Positions 36,138 through 47,572 of a stretch of DNA of 64,000 nucleotides are shown piece after piece. The position numbers and the translations under genes are program-made. The stretch's first letter is position 1. Each line of letters begins with the position of its first letter. The notes under the pieces were generated by a model. It ran no database searches, was not told the DNA's origin, and was given only the letters and a program-made list of their open reading frames with translations. Location: the NCBI GenBank assembly GCA_028281825.1, contig JANQJC010000050.1:1-64000 (forward strand), given 5' to 3'. Source of the DNA: Flavobacteriales bacterium (GTDB lineage Bacteria; Bacteroidota; Bacteroidia; JANQJC01).

Positions 36138-37004
36138 TTATTTAGTCAATACCAACTTATCAGTTTTGATAATATTGTCGTTAGCATCTCTCATTTGCCA
36201 TACGTAGGTGCCTGCAGGCAAGTGACCAATGGTAATTGTTTTGTTCTCCTTACTTAATTTAGCATCCAACACCCTTCCACCAATGATATTAAAGATACTC
36301 ACTTTAGCTGTATTGTTGCTACCAAGGTTGAATGATACTTTATCAACAACCGGATTTGGGTAACTTGAAATAGAGCCTTTATCAGTATTTGAAATACCAA
36401 CTGTTGGCAAATAAATCAAATCCAAATCATCAACATACATTTTAGTATCAACAATACCACCACTAGCTTGACCAGAAGTGGCGATAAAGATTGCTTTTTC
36501 AGGGTCACCGGTCAAAAAATAGTTTACCTTAACAGCAAATCGTGTCCAGTTTGGCTGAGCTACAAGAGCAGTAAAATTGCCCACACCAACTGTATCGTTT
36601 CCACTATTTCTAAGCAAGAAAACATTAACTGTAGCACCAGCATCATTACCTTGTGGCACATACTTATACCAGCCAACCAATGAGTCTGGACGAAGCGCAA
36701 AATCTACACCACCGGTAAATTGCTGTGTAAAAATATCCAATGTACCAGTAGCCATAGTTCCTGGAACCACACCAAAAGTACCAGCATTTTTTGTAGTAAG
36801 AATGGATGCTGAAGCTCCCCCGTGAAAATCACCAGCAGAAGTTCCTTGAGTGCATGAACCAGGAACAAAGCTATTTAGAGTTGTCCAACCTGTTGGGTTG
36901 CCACCACTCCAAGCTTCCATATCTGGATTAGGAATAGCATTCTGTGCCATTGCAGCCCATCCTGCGAATAAAAACATACTGGCAAGAGTAAAAATTTTCT
37001 TCAT
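36138..37004 (-). CDS. Secreted PCMD-like protein with T9SS sorting domain
   Basis: A 288-aa exported protein with a signal peptide (KKIFTLASMFLFAGWAAMAQ). The mature part starts IPNPDMEAWSGGNPTGW, typical of the PCMD-like beta-sandwich found in Bacteroidota surface proteins ('NGDFE.W....P.GW'), with MYVDDLDLIY at the end of that domain. The last ~75 residues are a T9SS type A sorting domain (SSYPNPVVDKVSF ... LPAGTYVWQM). It probably binds carbohydrate or protein on the surface. It is transcribed convergently to 35518 and shares its terminator. Confidence 0.85.
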   Translation of the reverse strand: MKKIFTLASMFLFAGWAAMAQNAIPNPDMEAWSGGNPTGWTTLNSFVPGSCTQGTSAGDFHGGASASILTTKNAGTFGVVPGTMATGTLDIFTQQFTGGVDFALRPDSLVGWYKYVPQGNDAGATVNVFLLRNSGNDTVGVGNFTALVAQPNWTRFAVKVNYFLTGDPEKAIFIATSGQASGGIVDTKMYVDDLDLIYLPTVGISNTDKGSISSYPNPVVDKVSFNLGSNNTAKVSIFNIIGGRVLDAKLSKENKTITIGHLPAGTYVWQMRDANDNIIKTDKLVLTK

Positions 37005-37139: not shown

Positions 37140-38792
37140 ATGAAGAAATTTTACTTTATTCTTAGTTTTATTTTTGTTGTCAATACTTCTTTTGCTCAAT
37201 CAACTTTCGAGTCTGTTTATAACCTCTTTCAGGCAAATTGTACCGTATCATGCCATAGTGGAGCTACTCCAGCTGGGCAATTGAACCTTGCTGCTCCCAT
37301 TATGGATGTGTATGCTGACCTTATTAATGTGACACCTGGAAATTTTGAAGCTGCAAGTAAAGGATACAAGCAAGTAGACCCAGGATACCCCGAAAGAAGT
37401 TTTTTGTTTAGAAAAGTGGCTCATGATATTGACCCAGACAGGGATTACCTAACGATACCAATGGGAAACCCTATGCCTGATGGACAAGCAGCCATGGACC
37501 ATGACGAAATTGAATTAATAAGACAGTGGATACTTTATGGTGCTGGTGATACCAATGAAACTTATCTCGACCCCCAGATACTTGAAGATTTTTATGGTGG
37601 AATGGGTTTACCAAGAGTAGAAGCTCCTGACGCCCCTAATGTAAATGAGGGTTTTCAATTACATTACGGCCCCTTCTTTCTTGAACCACTTGCAGAAAAA
37701 GAGTTCATGTATAAGTATGACACGAAACTACCTGTTACTAAAGAAATTTACCGTGTGAATACCAAGATTAATGAGGAATCTCACCATACAGCTCTTTATC
37801 GTTATCACCCTCAAGCTGATAGCTTAATTAAACCAGGTTTACGTCAGGTAAATGGCCTGTTGGATGCAGCACAAGTATTCTTTGCTTCTGATATACTAGG
37901 TCAATGGCCAAACGACCAGAACTTAGTTTTGCCCGAGGGTTTGGCGTTTACTTTTCCTCAAAACTGCGTTCTTGACCTTAACTATCACATTTTAAATTAC
38001 AGTTCTGACTCTATTTTAGCAGCGGAGTTTTATATGAACGTATATACTCAAGATGAAGGCACCGCCGAAGCTGAATTACTTTCTTTACCAGTTTACTATG
38101 GCGGACAGGAAGTATTCAACCTTATTATACCTCCTGGTGACAGCACTTTTGTGATAGAGCAATTTGAGACCGATACTGCCTATTCTATCTATCTTTGGTC
38201 CATCATGGCACATACGCATCAATTTGGGACATCTTTTGACGTATGGACAAGAGACTCATTAGGCGGTAAGGATGAACATATCTACAATGGAAACTATGAC
38301 CCAACTTATACTTTCCTTACTCCTAGCTACGATTGGCAACACGCCCCATTCCGCACATTTGACCCATTGAAGGAAATAGACATGACCAAAGGACTCATTC
38401 ATGAAGCTAGTTTTCACAACCCAGGAACAGAGAATATCGTATTTGGCTTGACCAATGATGATGAAATGTTTGTAACTTATCTGCAATATGCGAAGATACC
38501 TTTGACTGATGACACAGGAGAGAAAGAGATAGGCTTTGGCTACTTTAACGCTTATCCCAATCCCACCAAAGACCAGTTAACACTATCCTTTACTAATAAT
38601 GCTGACTCTGATGGTTTTGTGAGCATTTTTGACAATATGGGGAGAGAAATATACAGTAAAAGTTACTCTCTGAAAACTGGCGTTCAAAAAATTCAACTCA
38701 GCAAAAGTGAATTGGGAATAAGTGCCGGAATGTACTCCGTTAGACTGTCAACTCATCGCGGAAACAAAGTTACTAAAGTGGTTTTTGAATAG
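37140..38792 (+). CDS. Haem c / type II copper monooxygenase-like protein with T9SS domain, copy 1
   Basis: A 550-aa exported protein. After the signal peptide (KKFYFILSFIFVVNTSFAQ) comes a cytochrome c-like domain with an unusual CX3CH haem site (Cys34-TVS-Cys38-His39), an axial Met candidate in GNPMPDG and ELIRQWILYGAGDT, as in planctomycete-type cytochromes. Residues ~165-460 carry the ligand pattern of type II ascorbate-dependent copper monooxygenases (PHM/DBM): His215-His216 (ESHHTALY), His283 (NYHILNY), His358/His360 (AHTHQFG) and Met443 (DDEMFVTYLQY). A T9SS type A domain ends the protein. It would be surface-exposed. The substrate is unknown; the haem domain may replace ascorbate as electron donor. 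It aligns end to end with 39021. Confidence 0.85.
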   Translation: MKKFYFILSFIFVVNTSFAQSTFESVYNLFQANCTVSCHSGATPAGQLNLAAPIMDVYADLINVTPGNFEAASKGYKQVDPGYPERSFLFRKVAHDIDPDRDYLTIPMGNPMPDGQAAMDHDEIELIRQWILYGAGDTNETYLDPQILEDFYGGMGLPRVEAPDAPNVNEGFQLHYGPFFLEPLAEKEFMYKYDTKLPVTKEIYRVNTKINEESHHTALYRYHPQADSLIKPGLRQVNGLLDAAQVFFASDILGQWPNDQNLVLPEGLAFTFPQNCVLDLNYHILNYSSDSILAAEFYMNVYTQDEGTAEAELLSLPVYYGGQEVFNLIIPPGDSTFVIEQFETDTAYSIYLWSIMAHTHQFGTSFDVWTRDSLGGKDEHIYNGNYDPTYTFLTPSYDWQHAPFRTFDPLKEIDMTKGLIHEASFHNPGTENIVFGLTNDDEMFVTYLQYAKIPLTDDTGEKEIGFGYFNAYPNPTKDQLTLSFTNNADSDGFVSIFDNMGREIYSKSYSLKTGVQKIQLSKSELGISAGMYSVRLSTHRGNKVTKVVFE

Positions 38793-38810
38793 AATAAGCT
38801 AAAAACACTA

Positions 38811-38825
38811 CCGTTTGTCGAATAA
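38811..38825 (+). promoter_or_regulatory. Possible direct-repeat-like site 3
   Basis: CCGTTTGTCGAATAA contains the GTTTGTCGA core of sites 1 and 2, but only a single copy is clear. It lies about 130 nt upstream of the -7 box of the 39021 gene. Weak evidence. Confidence 0.3.
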
Positions 38826-38929
38826 TATGTAACCTTTTTTAAACACACTTATCCACATTAAAACCCTTAAAAATAAAGGGTTACAGGAAATAAGTACCTT
38901 TATTGAGTGTTCAAACACTATAAAGTTTA

Positions 38930-38962
38930 TTTGACATGCATTATATAATTGACTTATTTTTG
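38930..38962 (+). promoter_or_regulatory. Full promoter TTTG-N21-TATTTTTG for the second haem-copper gene
   Basis: A -33 TTTG (38930-38933) and a -7 TATTTTTG (38955-38962) are separated by 21 nt, matching the Bacteroidota housekeeping promoter. It implies a leader of about 52 nt and transcription separate from copy 1. Confidence 0.65.
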
Positions 38963-39020
38963 CAATGCAAGCATTGATAATAAACGGGGTTCGCCGCCCA
39001 AAAAACAAACAAAATAAGCT

Positions 39021-40724
39021 ATGAGTAGAAACTTTTACTTTACACTATTGAGTGTTGCAATGGTTGTATTTGGATACACAAATACACAAGCACAAAACTC
39101 AACTTTTACTGAAGTTTACAACATTTTTCAAGCTAAATGTACGTTTGGTTGCCATAGTGGAAGCAATCCTTCAGGGCTATTAAACTTATCGGGAACTGAA
39201 CAGGAAGTTTATGAAAGACTTGTTGGAGTGACTGCAGCTAACCCATATGCTGCAGCTGAAGGTCAAATGTTGGTTAGACCTGGATACCCAAAAGAAAGTT
39301 TCTTACTTAAAAAAGTAAGTGCTGGACTGGATCCAGAACTTGACCTTACGGATATAGCTCAAGGTAATTCAATGCCTGCCTCTCAACCTTTGCAAAAAAA
39401 CGAAGCTGAACTAATTCGCCAATGGATTTTATTTGGTGCAAAAGATACTGGAACTGTTATTGACCCACAGGTGTTGTTTGATTTCTACCAAAACGGCATG
39501 GGCCTTGAAGAAATAGATGCTCCAAGAACTCCAGAAGCTGATGGTTATGAGGGTCATCAAGTAAGAATAGGACCTATGTTCTTAAAGCCACTTGAGGAAA
39601 TTGAATTCTTCTTGAAGCAAGAAGTAGGTTTGCCTCACGAGAAAGAAGTATATAGATTAGATGGTTTCATGAATGAAGAGTCTCATCACTACGCGTTATT
39701 CGATATGGATCCATTTGCCGCTCAATATCAACCCGATGGTTTGTATGAGGCCCATGGAATTAACGAAGTAGCGTTTGTTCACCTTAACTCTACTCTATTA
39801 GGCGCCTGGCAATACGACAGAAACATGGAGTTACCTGATAACGCCGCTTTCTTCTGGGATGAGAATTCTGTTTTAGCAGTCAATTATCACGTGCTTAACT
39901 ACAGCTCAGACTCGATTCTTAAAGCTGACGCTTTTATCAACATATATACTAGAGACACAGTTGAAGGTACAAGAGAAATTGTTTCTGTTGTTGACCAATT
40001 AGGAAACAATGATCCTTTTATCCTTCAAATTCCGCCAATGGCTCAAGGTGAATTGCATACGGAAAGCTTCTTTTACAAGAAGCCTGGTGAGATTTGGGAC
40101 ATTTGGTCATTCCAGGCTCATACTCATAGTTGGGGAAGAGACTATGATGTCTACCTGGTAAATCCTGATGGAACTGTGAACTGGGATGAGCAGATTTATG
40201 AAGGTTTTTACGACCCAACATATACCTTCTTACAGCCGAGTTTTGATTTTGCTCATCCTCCAACAAGGACCTGGGATGATGAATTCTTAACTGTGAACAT
40301 GGACCATGGCTTATATCTTGAGGCCAAATTTGCGAACACAACACAAGATACTGTTGGTTTTGGTTTCACAACTTATGATGAAATGTTTGCCTTCTATCTT
40401 CACTATCTTGACCATGTTGAAGATACTACCGGAACTGACACAAGTGGTATTGGTATTGCAGAACTTGGAGATGCTCATTTAACGGTATATCCTAACCCAA
40501 TGACTGACCTTGCTGTCATTAATGTTTCTAACTCAAACGGTATTCAACTTGATAATGCTGAACTACAAATCCATGACATGATGGGTAAAGTGGTTAGAAG
40601 AGAAAGTGGGATCAACAGAAACTCAATAAGAGTTGAAAGAGAAGGTTTGCCCGCTGGTATTTATATATACAGCCTTTTGCAAAACGGGATTAAAATCGGT
40701 GCTGGTAAGCTGATAATGAAATAA
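39021..40724 (+). CDS. Haem c / type II copper monooxygenase-like protein with T9SS domain, copy 2
   Basis: A 567-aa paralogue of the 37140 protein in the same order: signal peptide (ending NTQAQ), a CX3CH haem site (Cys40-TFG-Cys44-His45), a Met candidate in GNSMPAS, ELIRQWILFGAKDT, and the copper-monooxygenase core with His222-His223 (ESHHYALF), His290 (NYHVLNY), His367/His369 (AHTHSWG) and Met455 (YDEMFAFYLHY). The C-terminal ~80 residues are a T9SS type A domain. All five His and the Met match copy 1, so the copper sites look intact in both. The gene has its own promoter and terminator. Divergence between copies suggests different substrates. Confidence 0.85.
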   Translation: MSRNFYFTLLSVAMVVFGYTNTQAQNSTFTEVYNIFQAKCTFGCHSGSNPSGLLNLSGTEQEVYERLVGVTAANPYAAAEGQMLVRPGYPKESFLLKKVSAGLDPELDLTDIAQGNSMPASQPLQKNEAELIRQWILFGAKDTGTVIDPQVLFDFYQNGMGLEEIDAPRTPEADGYEGHQVRIGPMFLKPLEEIEFFLKQEVGLPHEKEVYRLDGFMNEESHHYALFDMDPFAAQYQPDGLYEAHGINEVAFVHLNSTLLGAWQYDRNMELPDNAAFFWDENSVLAVNYHVLNYSSDSILKADAFINIYTRDTVEGTREIVSVVDQLGNNDPFILQIPPMAQGELHTESFFYKKPGEIWDIWSFQAHTHSWGRDYDVYLVNPDGTVNWDEQIYEGFYDPTYTFLQPSFDFAHPPTRTWDDEFLTVNMDHGLYLEAKFANTTQDTVGFGFTTYDEMFAFYLHYLDHVEDTTGTDTSGIGIAELGDAHLTVYPNPMTDLAVINVSNSNGIQLDNAELQIHDMMGKVVRRESGINRNSIRVEREGLPAGIYIYSLLQNGIKIGAGKLIMK

Positions 40725-43855: not shown

Positions 43856-46800
43856 CTATTTGCTCCCGTTGGCTTCCTGGTAAAGGCTTGTTTTTATCTT
43901 TTGCACCTCATTTTCAAGCATCTTAAGACTAGACACTGCTTCTTTTAACTCCTGATTATCAGATTGCAATAATTGATTAGTTGACTTAAGCTCCTCTATT
44001 TGAGCTTGTTGCTCTTGGATACCTTTCAATAGTACTGTAGTTAACTTATCATAGTGCACAATGTATCTGTCTGATTTCTCATCATGGAATACCATGTCAG
44101 GATAATATTTTAGTATTTCCTGAGCTATTACACCAATATGTTCATCATCATCAAGGTTTTCTTCTTCTTTATACTTGAACCTAATGGCGCTCAATTCCAT
44201 CAATGTAGGTAGGGTCTCTTCAAGTGGCTTAATGTCTTTCTTGGTTCTTATATCAGAAACTGTAGTACCTGTAGCCCATATTGCTGCGCCGTCATACAAT
44301 ACCATGTTTCTATCCGCTTGCAGGGCAAGGAAAAAATTACCCCTGGTCTCAGACCTAAATATTCCATTAGCTGCCCTTATCTCTGTTCCTCTTATTGTTC
44401 CTGTAACATCCAATTTTTGAGCTGGACCAGTATTTCCTATCCCTACGTTGCCACCTGCTTGCACGTACAGCCTTGTAGTACCAAAGCCACTTCCATAAAT
44501 TCCATCACCACCGTCCTCAGTAATTACAAAACCATTGTCTGTTCCTTCAATACCTCCCACCGACCAGTTTTTAGCATCCCTGCTTCTGAACAATATTTTA
44601 GCACCATCATTACCTGCGCCTGTAGTTCTAACCATGAGTGTTTGCCCCCAAGAGTTATTTCCGGGGCTGACAAACTGGGCTACTACGCGGTTATCTGTTG
44701 AAGCCCTCTCAACATGTAATGTATTGATGGGATTTAATGAATTAAGGCCCACAAATCCAGAATTAAGTATCGTCATCTTGGTTGAACCGTTGTAATTCCT
44801 GATACCAGCATGTGGATTTAAATCAGTACCCGCATGATAACCTATATCAAGAAATGTGCTATTAGCACCTGCTGTACCAATTGACCAATGTTTGTGAGCA
44901 CCAGAAGCACCAGCATCATACCCACCTAACATAAAGGTAGCACCGTGGTTTCCATTACCAGAATTACCAGACATCATTACCATTTGCGGGTAAACTCCTG
45001 TAGCACCAACACCAGCCCTATCATTACCATCAGTGAATATTCCGTTACCGTGATTACCTGCAACATGCAATTTGCCAGAAGGGTTAGTAGTACCAATACC
45101 TACATTGCCATCATTAAACGTAACCATATCACCACCACTATTCCAATCGTAGAACCTTAATTGTTCAAATGCCATTCTATGAAAACTACCTTGAAGCTCC
45201 AGACTCAACCTATCAGCACCAGTACCTATCATAACCCACCCTTGAGACCTAAGGGTTCCTGCTACATCCAGCTTGTATCCTGGGTTTGTTGAACCAACAC
45301 CTACATTACCACCAGGAAGCACCGCCAAGCGCGATGTACCAAAACCACCTACTCCAGCATCTTCATTCAGTGTAAATGTACCGACATTAACTCCATTCAA
45401 AATACCTAGTGACCAGTCTTTGGTGCTAGTCATAGTTTTACGGAACTGCATCTTAGGGCCATCAGAGTTGCCAATTGCATTTTGGTTAAGTAGAATACCC
45501 ACCCCGTAAGCGCTAGCCCCATTGTGGTCAACTTCTAACTTTGCAATTGGAGAAGTACCGCCAATGGCCACATTACCACCTGAAGAGTTAAGGGCAAGAT
45601 TTGCCCATGCACCAAGTCCACTATTGTGTCCACCAATTTGAGCTACTCCATTCAACTCTCCCATAATAACAGTAGCAGAAGTATAGCCAAAAGCACCGCC
45701 ACCCTTCCAGTTGCCTGTGTTACTATAACCTCTTATCGTAACCGGTTGAACATCTGAAGAAGCTGCCCCTACCTGTAAGTGACTGGTTGGATTACTATTG
45801 CCAATACCAGTATTACCTTTTATAAATAAGCGGCCTGTTCCACCCTCAATATCCAATAACGGATCCCAACCAGATGAGAAGAATGCAAAATGCCTGGATG
45901 AGTGCATATGAATACCAAAACCTGTTCTACCCCACGCGCCGCGCGAAGAACTACCTTTAATTAAGCCTTCATCCCAATTATTACCTATATCACGCCTCCA
46001 TTGAACCAATGGCCATTGATCTGAATCATTATTATCAAAATTTCCCAGAGTAATAGTACTACCATCGTTTGCAAGATTAGAAGTATTAACCCAACTTGTA
46101 CCGTTATGATAAAGTGTTTGTGCAGCAGTACCAGCTGGTAATACTCCACCTGGCATTGATTGAGTGGTAAGTGTACCACCAGCATTTGCCACTACCATTC
46201 TATCTCCAGCACCAGAAAGCGTTCCTAGCGTAAGGTTACCTGTGCCATCCAATACCATTGATTCTCCTGGAGCATCCATATCAAACCTCACAATATTAGC
46301 CTCCCAACCCCCAAAACCATCACCTGTGCGTGCAAACCTTAAATCATTAGTGCCAGCAGCACCGTAGTGTATCCATAAAGACTTATTGTCCTGACCGTCC
46401 ATTCTAATAGAAGCCCAACCGTCATCCGAAATACCTAAACCACCAGTACCAGTAGTATGAAGGTGAAGCTTAGCCCCAGGAGTTGTTGTATTTATACCCA
46501 CATTACCGTTTTGGTTAAGTATAGTCAAGGCTTCAGAATCGCTGCCGTTTACCCTCCTAAAAATTCTAAAAGGAACACTGCCTCCGCCATTATCCCTTGT
46601 ATCCAATCTCCAGCCATATAAATTGTTGGCTGATGCCATGTACAAATGATTATCATTACGCGGACCAATATGAACCTTTGCTGTTGGAGCAGCATTGCCA
46701 AACCCCACATTGCCACCACCTGAATTAATATATAAATCAGACCATGCGCCTAAACTTGAATTATGCCCCCCAATTTGGGCTACTCCACTTAATTCACCAA

Positions 46801-47572
46801 GAATTACAGCTCCACTGGTATAACCAAATGCCCCACCACCTTTCCAATTACCAATATTACTATAACCCCTTATTGTTACCGATTGACCGTCACTTGTAGC
46901 GTTACCTACACTTAATTTGTGACCCGGGGCAACATTGCCGACACCTACATTACCATTGTTAATAATTGACAATACCTGTGAATCATTAGCTGCAAAATCA
47001 CCTGTATGCCCTCCAAAGCCATTATCCATTGCCGCAAGCTTAAAAATATTGCCATCGCTACCTAGTTTGTAACTTGAAACACCGCTTGAATGAAAAAGCA
47101 CTACTGGATTAGAACCACTCTTATAAAGCTCCAGGCTTTCAACTGGTGTACCAGTACCAATACCTATATTAGTGCCATTGTCAAATAGCTGACTATTACC
47201 CAAGGCTGTGCCGCTTGGCGTCCATTTTGTCAAGTAGTTTACTGTACCAGAGCCTGAAAGAGAACCCTGGACAGTTGCAATCTGTGTCCAAGCTGAGCCA
47301 GTCCAGTAATATAGACCGTCAGGGCCTATGGCTCCGCCAACGTTATGGACCATTAGGCCAGTAGGCTTAGCCCCTGAAATTGGCAGATCATTACCATTAA
47401 GTTCTAACCTAGGAGGTAAGAAACCACGCCTATCGCTCGATAAGTCAAGAACAGCTTGAGTATTTGGTGTGAAGGTAGCATCACTTATGCCAACAGTTTG
47501 AGCTTCTACATCGAAGCATACCGCCAATATATACAATGCTATAGATAGTTTTTTAAGTAATCTTACTCTCAT
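43856..47572 (-). CDS. Large repeat protein with C-terminal peptidase S74 (intramolecular chaperone) domain
   Basis: A 1238-aa exported protein with a signal peptide (KKLSIALYILAVCFDVEAQ). The body is built from about a dozen units containing GNVGIG/GNVGVG-type motifs, each followed by a variable strand region, as in phage tail-fibre-like and collagen-like surface proteins. Two long segments are near-duplicates of each other (GGGAFGYTS ... GVAQIGGHNS ... GAWSDLYINS and its partner). The C-terminus is a peptidase S74 chaperone domain (SDIRTKKDIKPL ... IGVIAQEILKYYPD) and a coiled coil (EEQQAQIEELKSTNQ-type heptads). S74 domains trimerise and may be auto-cleaved. No T9SS domain is present. The role is probably a surface adhesin or structural fibre. 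Confidence 0.88.
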   Translation of the reverse strand: MRVRLLKKLSIALYILAVCFDVEAQTVGISDATFTPNTQAVLDLSSDRRGFLPPRLELNGNDLPISGAKPTGLMVHNVGGAIGPDGLYYWTGSAWTQIATVQGSLSGSGTVNYLTKWTPSGTALGNSQLFDNGTNIGIGTGTPVESLELYKSGSNPVVLFHSSGVSSYKLGSDGNIFKLAAMDNGFGGHTGDFAANDSQVLSIINNGNVGVGNVAPGHKLSVGNATSDGQSVTIRGYSNIGNWKGGGAFGYTSGAVILGELSGVAQIGGHNSSLGAWSDLYINSGGGNVGFGNAAPTAKVHIGPRNDNHLYMASANNLYGWRLDTRDNGGGSVPFRIFRRVNGSDSEALTILNQNGNVGINTTTPGAKLHLHTTGTGGLGISDDGWASIRMDGQDNKSLWIHYGAAGTNDLRFARTGDGFGGWEANIVRFDMDAPGESMVLDGTGNLTLGTLSGAGDRMVVANAGGTLTTQSMPGGVLPAGTAAQTLYHNGTSWVNTSNLANDGSTITLGNFDNNDSDQWPLVQWRRDIGNNWDEGLIKGSSSRGAWGRTGFGIHMHSSRHFAFFSSGWDPLLDIEGGTGRLFIKGNTGIGNSNPTSHLQVGAASSDVQPVTIRGYSNTGNWKGGGAFGYTSATVIMGELNGVAQIGGHNSGLGAWANLALNSSGGNVAIGGTSPIAKLEVDHNGASAYGVGILLNQNAIGNSDGPKMQFRKTMTSTKDWSLGILNGVNVGTFTLNEDAGVGGFGTSRLAVLPGGNVGVGSTNPGYKLDVAGTLRSQGWVMIGTGADRLSLELQGSFHRMAFEQLRFYDWNSGGDMVTFNDGNVGIGTTNPSGKLHVAGNHGNGIFTDGNDRAGVGATGVYPQMVMMSGNSGNGNHGATFMLGGYDAGASGAHKHWSIGTAGANSTFLDIGYHAGTDLNPHAGIRNYNGSTKMTILNSGFVGLNSLNPINTLHVERASTDNRVVAQFVSPGNNSWGQTLMVRTTGAGNDGAKILFRSRDAKNWSVGGIEGTDNGFVITEDGGDGIYGSGFGTTRLYVQAGGNVGIGNTGPAQKLDVTGTIRGTEIRAANGIFRSETRGNFFLALQADRNMVLYDGAAIWATGTTVSDIRTKKDIKPLEETLPTLMELSAIRFKYKEEENLDDDEHIGVIAQEILKYYPDMVFHDEKSDRYIVHYDKLTTVLLKGIQEQQAQIEELKSTNQLLQSDNQELKEAVSSLKMLENEVQKIKTSLYQEANGSK

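Follow-up and report, generated by a model that had tools for sequence, protein, structure and literature searches.

The two-copper core of the PHM/DBM enzymes finishes peptide hormones and makes noradrenaline in animals. In PHM, one copper (CuH) is held by a His-His pair and a further His, the other (CuM) by a His-X-His motif and a Met. Ascorbate reduces the coppers of PHM directly, and how electrons get to the two coppers, which are uncoupled in the PHM/DBM enzymes, is an old question. Here, we describe two adjacent genes, P1 and P2, in a 64,000-nucleotide stretch of contig JANQJC010000050.1 from a Flavobacteriales bacterium (hereafter the window). Both are predicted to encode surface proteins in which a mono-haem c-type cytochrome is fused before a PHM/DBM-like two-copper core, followed by a sorting domain of the type IX secretion system (T9SS). 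The superfamily is of a known kind; here its core comes with a predicted c-type cytochrome attached and a T9SS export signal. With moderate confidence, we read these proteins as C–H hydroxylases fed by their own haem. The features of the two genes are as follows.

37140..38792, forward strand: P1, first gene (550 residues); signal peptide, c-type haem domain, PHM-like dicopper core, T9SS type A sorting domain (residues 472–548)
39021..40724, forward strand: P2, second gene (567 residues); signal peptide, c-type haem domain, PHM-like core (residues ~165–466), T9SS sorting domain (residues 489–559)
37239..37256, forward strand: predicted haem attachment motif CTVSCH (CX3CH), P1 residues 34–39, from the sequence and invariant alignment columns
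39138..39155, forward strand: predicted haem attachment motif CTFGCH (CX3CH), P2 residues 40–45, from the sequence
39684..39689, forward strand: predicted CuH ligands His222-His223 of P2, from the alignment and the core profile against PHM
39888..39890, forward strand: predicted CuH ligand His290 of P2, within NYH, from the same two sources
40119..40127, forward strand: predicted CuM ligands His367 and His369 of P2 (HTH), from the same two sources
40377..40385, forward strand: DEM of P2, including the predicted CuM ligand Met455, from the same two sources

The open reading frames (ORFs), start codons and coordinates of P1 and P2 are as first described when checked on the sequence. The original prediction listed a signal peptide, CX3CH, GN(P/S)MP, ELIRQWI, six candidate copper ligands (in HH, NYH, HTH and DEM) and a T9SS domain for each gene, and the ORF and domain check found all of these in both. 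Each protein begins with an N-terminal hydrophobic signal and contains GNPMP or GNSMP and ELIRQWI, then SHH, NYH, HTH and DEM. This confirms, at the level of sequence and model, the order of signal peptide, c-type haem domain, PHM/DBM-like dicopper core and T9SS sorting domain. The genes are spaced by 232 bp, and identity between their products falls from 52% over the haem domain to 42% over the core and 23% over the tail. Cys40 and Cys44, both within the haem motif, are the sole cysteines of P2. A Bacteroidetes-type promoter before P2 (38930–38962) was considered and rejected, since the pattern occurs three times in the window against 3.4 expected by chance.

Conservation of the copper core was assessed in an alignment of 77 Bacteroidota homologues, with core identities mostly of 19–45% (P2 numbering is used throughout). 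His222, His223, His290, His367, His369, Glu454 and Asn288 are identical in 77/77 aligned homologues, and Met455 is invariant in all 76 rows that reach this position, one row ending before the Met. Homologues lacking these residues would have counted against the prediction, but all six copper ligands are kept wherever the aligned homologues reach them. Chance occurrence of the His motifs was rejected given this invariance. An AlphaFold2 model of P2 made with the family alignment has a mean predicted local distance difference test score (pLDDT) of 88.6, mostly 90–97 in the core blocks. Foldseek searches of the PDB with this model bore out the claim of a PHM-like core, the best 31 matches all being PHM or dopamine beta-hydroxylase (DBH) (E 2.8e-13 to 6.9e-9, probability 1.00). 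As in PHM (PDB entries 1PHM and 3MLL), the model displays a double jelly-roll, with HH and H for CuH and HxH and Met for CuM in the same order and with the same DEM context. A core profile compared with PDB sequences likewise gave PHM for all ten best matches, with HH, H, HTH and DEM in register, at weak significance (E=0.017 upward). The Pfam model Cu2_monoox_C (PF03712) matches P1 with E=1.5e-4 (21.7 bits) and P2 with E=4.8e-5 (23.3 bits). Since these fall just below and just above the 23-bit cut-off, the Pfam evidence alone is borderline; among scanned members of the family, 23/67 match the model (E<0.01). Fold and ligand set together support assignment of the core to the type II (PHM/DBM) copper monooxygenase superfamily, and the core is predicted to bind two coppers and to carry out O2-dependent C–H hydroxylation.

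The family departs from PHM in its fused haem domain and T9SS tail, and in lacking Arg240 and Asn316, the residues with which PHM holds its glycine-extended peptide substrate. The core profile and alignment place Ser, Thr, Met, Gln or Tyr at the position of Arg240, and Leu, Val or Ile at that of Asn316; the position of Tyr318 is occupied by Tyr in 26/77 and Phe in 30/77 members. As both Arg240 and Asn316 are missing, these are not peptide-amidating enzymes and their substrate differs from that of PHM: judged by the alignment, it is not a peptide that ends in glycine and is held as PHM holds it. PHM has five disulfides. The core contains no Cys at all in 45/77 members, so disulfides of the PHM type cannot exist in most of the family.

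The loss of Arg240 and Asn316 could also mean that the core does not hydroxylate at all and is some other redox or copper protein, such as an extracellular oxidase, a nitrite- or peroxide-consuming enzyme, or a copper/haem electron buffer with O2 as sink. The lack of pathway genes in the neighborhoods compared (24 and the window) fits such a role. Against it, a divergent family keeps every ligand of the two copper sites unchanged, the CuM Met and the DEM around it included, and CuM is the O2-activating hydroxylation site in known members. We regard a non-hydroxylase as unlikely, while giving it serious weight.

N-terminal to the core, Cys40, Cys44 and His45 are invariant in the 76/76 homologues that reach the motif. 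The isolated haem domain was modeled at a pLDDT of 95.1, and 15 of its 16 Foldseek matches are haem c proteins. The nearest solved relatives by profile are the C-terminal haem domain of hydrazine synthase alpha (5C2V; E=1.7e-4 over this domain) and FoxE (5MAB; 5.6e-4), and 5C2V also leads the fold search (probability 0.92, E 0.048). In contrast to the family, 5C2V and 5MAB have only CX2CH in the aligned stretch and are fused to other enzymes. These matches support a c-type haem domain with a predicted covalent haem. The description of the cytochrome as planctomycete-type proved fair but loose: it is a predicted c-type haem domain, and PSCyt1 (PF07635) is matched by just 4/67 members (best E=1.3e-4) compared with 10/67 for Cytochrome_CBB3. 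DBH (4ZEL) resembles the family both in its core fold (E=6e-13) and in carrying an extra N-terminal domain. The extra domain of DBH is a DOMON domain, related to haem- or sugar-binding domains, whereas that of the family is a predicted c-type cytochrome with a covalent attachment motif.

The likely distal haem ligand is at position 118, which is Met in 69/77 members, Cys in three and His in two. The column holds Val, Ala or Ser in three further members, with an adjacent His in two of these. Replacement of the distal Met by Cys, or a His at or beside its place, was noted at loci L016, L017, L034, L052, L053, L054, L055 and L068. It is possible that such replacements tune the haem potential.

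The CX3CH reported for P1 and P2 is indeed present in both, but it is not a general trait of the family. Among 76 informative rows, the loop between the cysteines has two residues in 22 members, three in 30, four in 22 and six in two. The CX6CH motifs, with the longest loops of the family, are CGSGNNSCH and CGSMTGGCH (L072 554–2278 and L069 1447–3426); the L072 member also has a long branch in the phylogeny. When mapped on a copper-domain tree, from which the haem domain was left out, loop length must have changed at least 14 times, against 33.5 with shuffled labels. It therefore drifts yet follows descent.

A three-residue loop raises the question of whether CX3CH has decayed or serves something other than haem, such as a disulfide or a metal, in which case these would be copper proteins only. 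It is not the standard haem motif, and hmmscan returned no cytochrome model at cut-off, PSCyt1 included, for P1 or P2. In addition, a review of System I reports that haem can be attached faultily in Escherichia coli when CXnCH spacing is altered (PMC3601427). We nevertheless consider a non-haem site very improbable, because Cys, Cys and His persist in 76/76 members with loops of two, three, four or six residues, CX2CH relatives occur in the same family, and the domain has a distal MP motif and cytochrome fold and profile matches.

The window genome encodes CcmB, CcmC, CcmE and CcmF. Its CcmE (L096 2335–2742, G000:C60) contains CPSKY, in which a cysteine replaces the haem-binding histidine, as do those of 30/30 family genomes (L127–L156). 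No CcmH above cut-off was found in the 31 genomes examined (the window genome and the 30 family genomes). The combination resembles the System I* state, with a CcmE cysteine and no CcmH, described for Desulfovibrio and archaea (PMC3601427, PMC9084895). Judged by sequence, these Bacteroidia appear generally to share a System I*-like way of maturing haem proteins, which may explain the tolerance of variable haem spacing. CcmE is present in 129/149 class members; the System I* state is thus a background trait, and the idea that it is a special partner of the haem-copper family was dropped as unsupported.

Export is indicated at the opposite end of the proteins. The T9SS domain is recognized in P1 and P2 by PF18962 (E=2.7e-11 and 2.7e-10) and by TIGR04183 (E=9e-11 and 3.5e-9), and the T9SS sortase PorU is encoded in the window genome (1436 bits). 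By C-terminal sorting domain and genomic sortase, P1 and P2 qualify as predicted T9SS type A cargo. The length fits a T9SS-tailed protein in 64/77 homologues, and 58/67 scanned members match a T9SS model.

A search for the order of cytochrome, Cu2_monooxygenase and T9SS domain in other Bacteroidota, as originally suggested, found it to be widespread. Searches with P2 gave matches at E<1e-17 that reach the haem or copper part in 53/395 Bacteroidia genomes (counted from the listing). A tally of 105/395 genomes was discarded as inflated, many of its matches covering the T9SS tail only (query residues 470–567). Extended to the wider phylum with a profile, the search placed the family in 23/396 genomes, other classes included, and no relative was found among plasmid records. 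PF03712 was matched 23 times across 198 Bacteroidota genomes, in 20 of them; read from the DNA, all but one of the matched proteins have an N-terminal CXnCH, and the exception is an ORF cut at its start. The haem fusion is therefore the ordinary state in Bacteroidota and not a local oddity, and its near-universality suggests that the haem and copper parts work together. Database entries from Planctomycetes and Acidobacteria appear also to include combinations of redoxin, cytochrome and Cu2_monoox domains.

P1 and P2 had been described as tandem paralogues. They are adjacent, but a recent tandem duplication was rejected, since they fall in different subclades, each common to other genomes (support of 99 on the P2 side by the Shimodaira–Hasegawa-like approximate likelihood ratio test, SH-aLRT). 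In this tree, they are two old subfamilies side by side; tandem pairs occur at about nine other loci. A second PF03712 group has HMH at CuM and CX2CH, and includes G000:C91, the third protein of this genome with the haem-PHM build (L071 5351–6730, reverse strand). Like P1 and P2, this protein has an N-terminal haem motif (CMPCH) followed by HH, NMH, HMH and DEM. It differs from them in its lipoprotein-like start, the lack of a T9SS tail in the window genome, HMH at CuM, CX2CH only, and an adjacent thioredoxin/redoxin-like gene. At L068 2351–6322, a 1324-residue open frame has the haem-copper unit in its N-terminal part. The window genome is the sole representative of its order in the searched set, and the window thus comes from a thinly sampled Bacteroidia lineage. 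The family had not been recognized as characterized, and a literature search, with subscription journals outside its coverage, found no experimental study of it or of T9SS-exported c-type cytochromes. What is new is that haem fusion is the rule across the phylum, that haem spacing drifts, that P1 and P2 belong to two old subfamilies, that Arg240 and Asn316 of PHM are missing, and that a partner gene, described below, recurs.

Under the haem-fed hydroxylase reading, the Ccm system would attach haem to CXnCH in the periplasm, copper would load, and the T9SS would export the folded protein and fix it on the cell surface. The haem, ligated by His45 and usually Met118, would take single electrons from a donor outside the cell or in the outer membrane and pass them to CuH (His222, His223, His290). 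From there an electron would reach the O2-binding CuM (His367, His369, Met455), as in PHM, and CuM would hydroxylate an extracellular substrate at a C–H bond. Each turnover would require the one haem to be reduced twice.

Alternatively, the core may be a hydroxylase whose haem does not feed the coppers, serving instead in docking, sensing or as a structural part while a small reductant acts directly. Animal PHM works without haem, and 8/77 members have lost the distal Met or have another residue in its place. Conversely, none of the 76 members that reach the motif has lost the haem triad, at any loop length, and fusion is near-universal among Bacteroidota Cu2_monoox_C proteins; both speak against a haem outside the electron path, and we judge this alternative improbable.

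Several points weigh against a haem-fed hydroxylase. One haem carries one electron, and hydroxylation takes two. No conserved electron-donor gene lies nearby in 25 stretches (24 neighborhoods and the window). The E-values of the cytochrome fold search are weak, the best being 0.048. For PHM, template modeling (TM) scores normalized by target are a moderate 0.53–0.65, with root-mean-square deviations of ~5–7 Å, so that domain packing may differ from that of PHM. Finally, the case is built from sequence and a predicted model.

The gene upstream of P1 may bear on the substrate. It encodes a T9SS protein with a putative carbohydrate metabolism domain (PCMD, so named), and lies divergent from P1 with a gap of 136 bp.

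36138..37004, reverse strand: PCMD and T9SS protein, 288 residues (PF13201 E=3.7e-7, and a T9SS domain), divergent from P1
PCMD-partner loci: window 36138–37004; L009, L016–L018, L021, L041, L070, L073, L076, L078–L080, L092

Among the 61 arrays with enough upstream sequence, 13 have a homologue of the PCMD protein's N-terminal domain divergent from, and less than 300 bp (25–276 bp) away from, the first family gene, and the whole window genome contains only four PCMD matches. The partner at L079 is a 1074-residue version with SprB repeats. We treat a glycan-related PCMD partner as a lead on the substrate, not as a result. In the same 25 stretches, no other recurring neighbors were found beyond synteny common to close relatives. 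Elsewhere in the window, the gene at 43856–47572 (reverse strand) encodes a 1238-residue secreted repeat protein whose C-terminus, DIRTKKDIKPLEE...IGVIAQE, resembles, by reading only, the peptidase S74 intramolecular chaperone domain, which occurs in phage tail spikes.

Taken as a whole, a broader account can be proposed tentatively, at a little less than even confidence: that these are unstudied, widespread surface dicopper hydroxylases in which a protein's own covalent haem replaces ascorbate, and whose haem spacing has changed repeatedly under a tolerant maturation system with a CcmE cysteine and no CcmH. The free drift of loop length within one family offers natural material for testing which spacings haem-attachment systems accept. 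If the hydroxylase reading is true, the built-in haem donor would allow electron delivery to the coppers to be followed through the absorbance of the haem. The bacterium would then also have an O2-dependent hydroxylase outside its cell, one that might attack polymers or xenobiotics.

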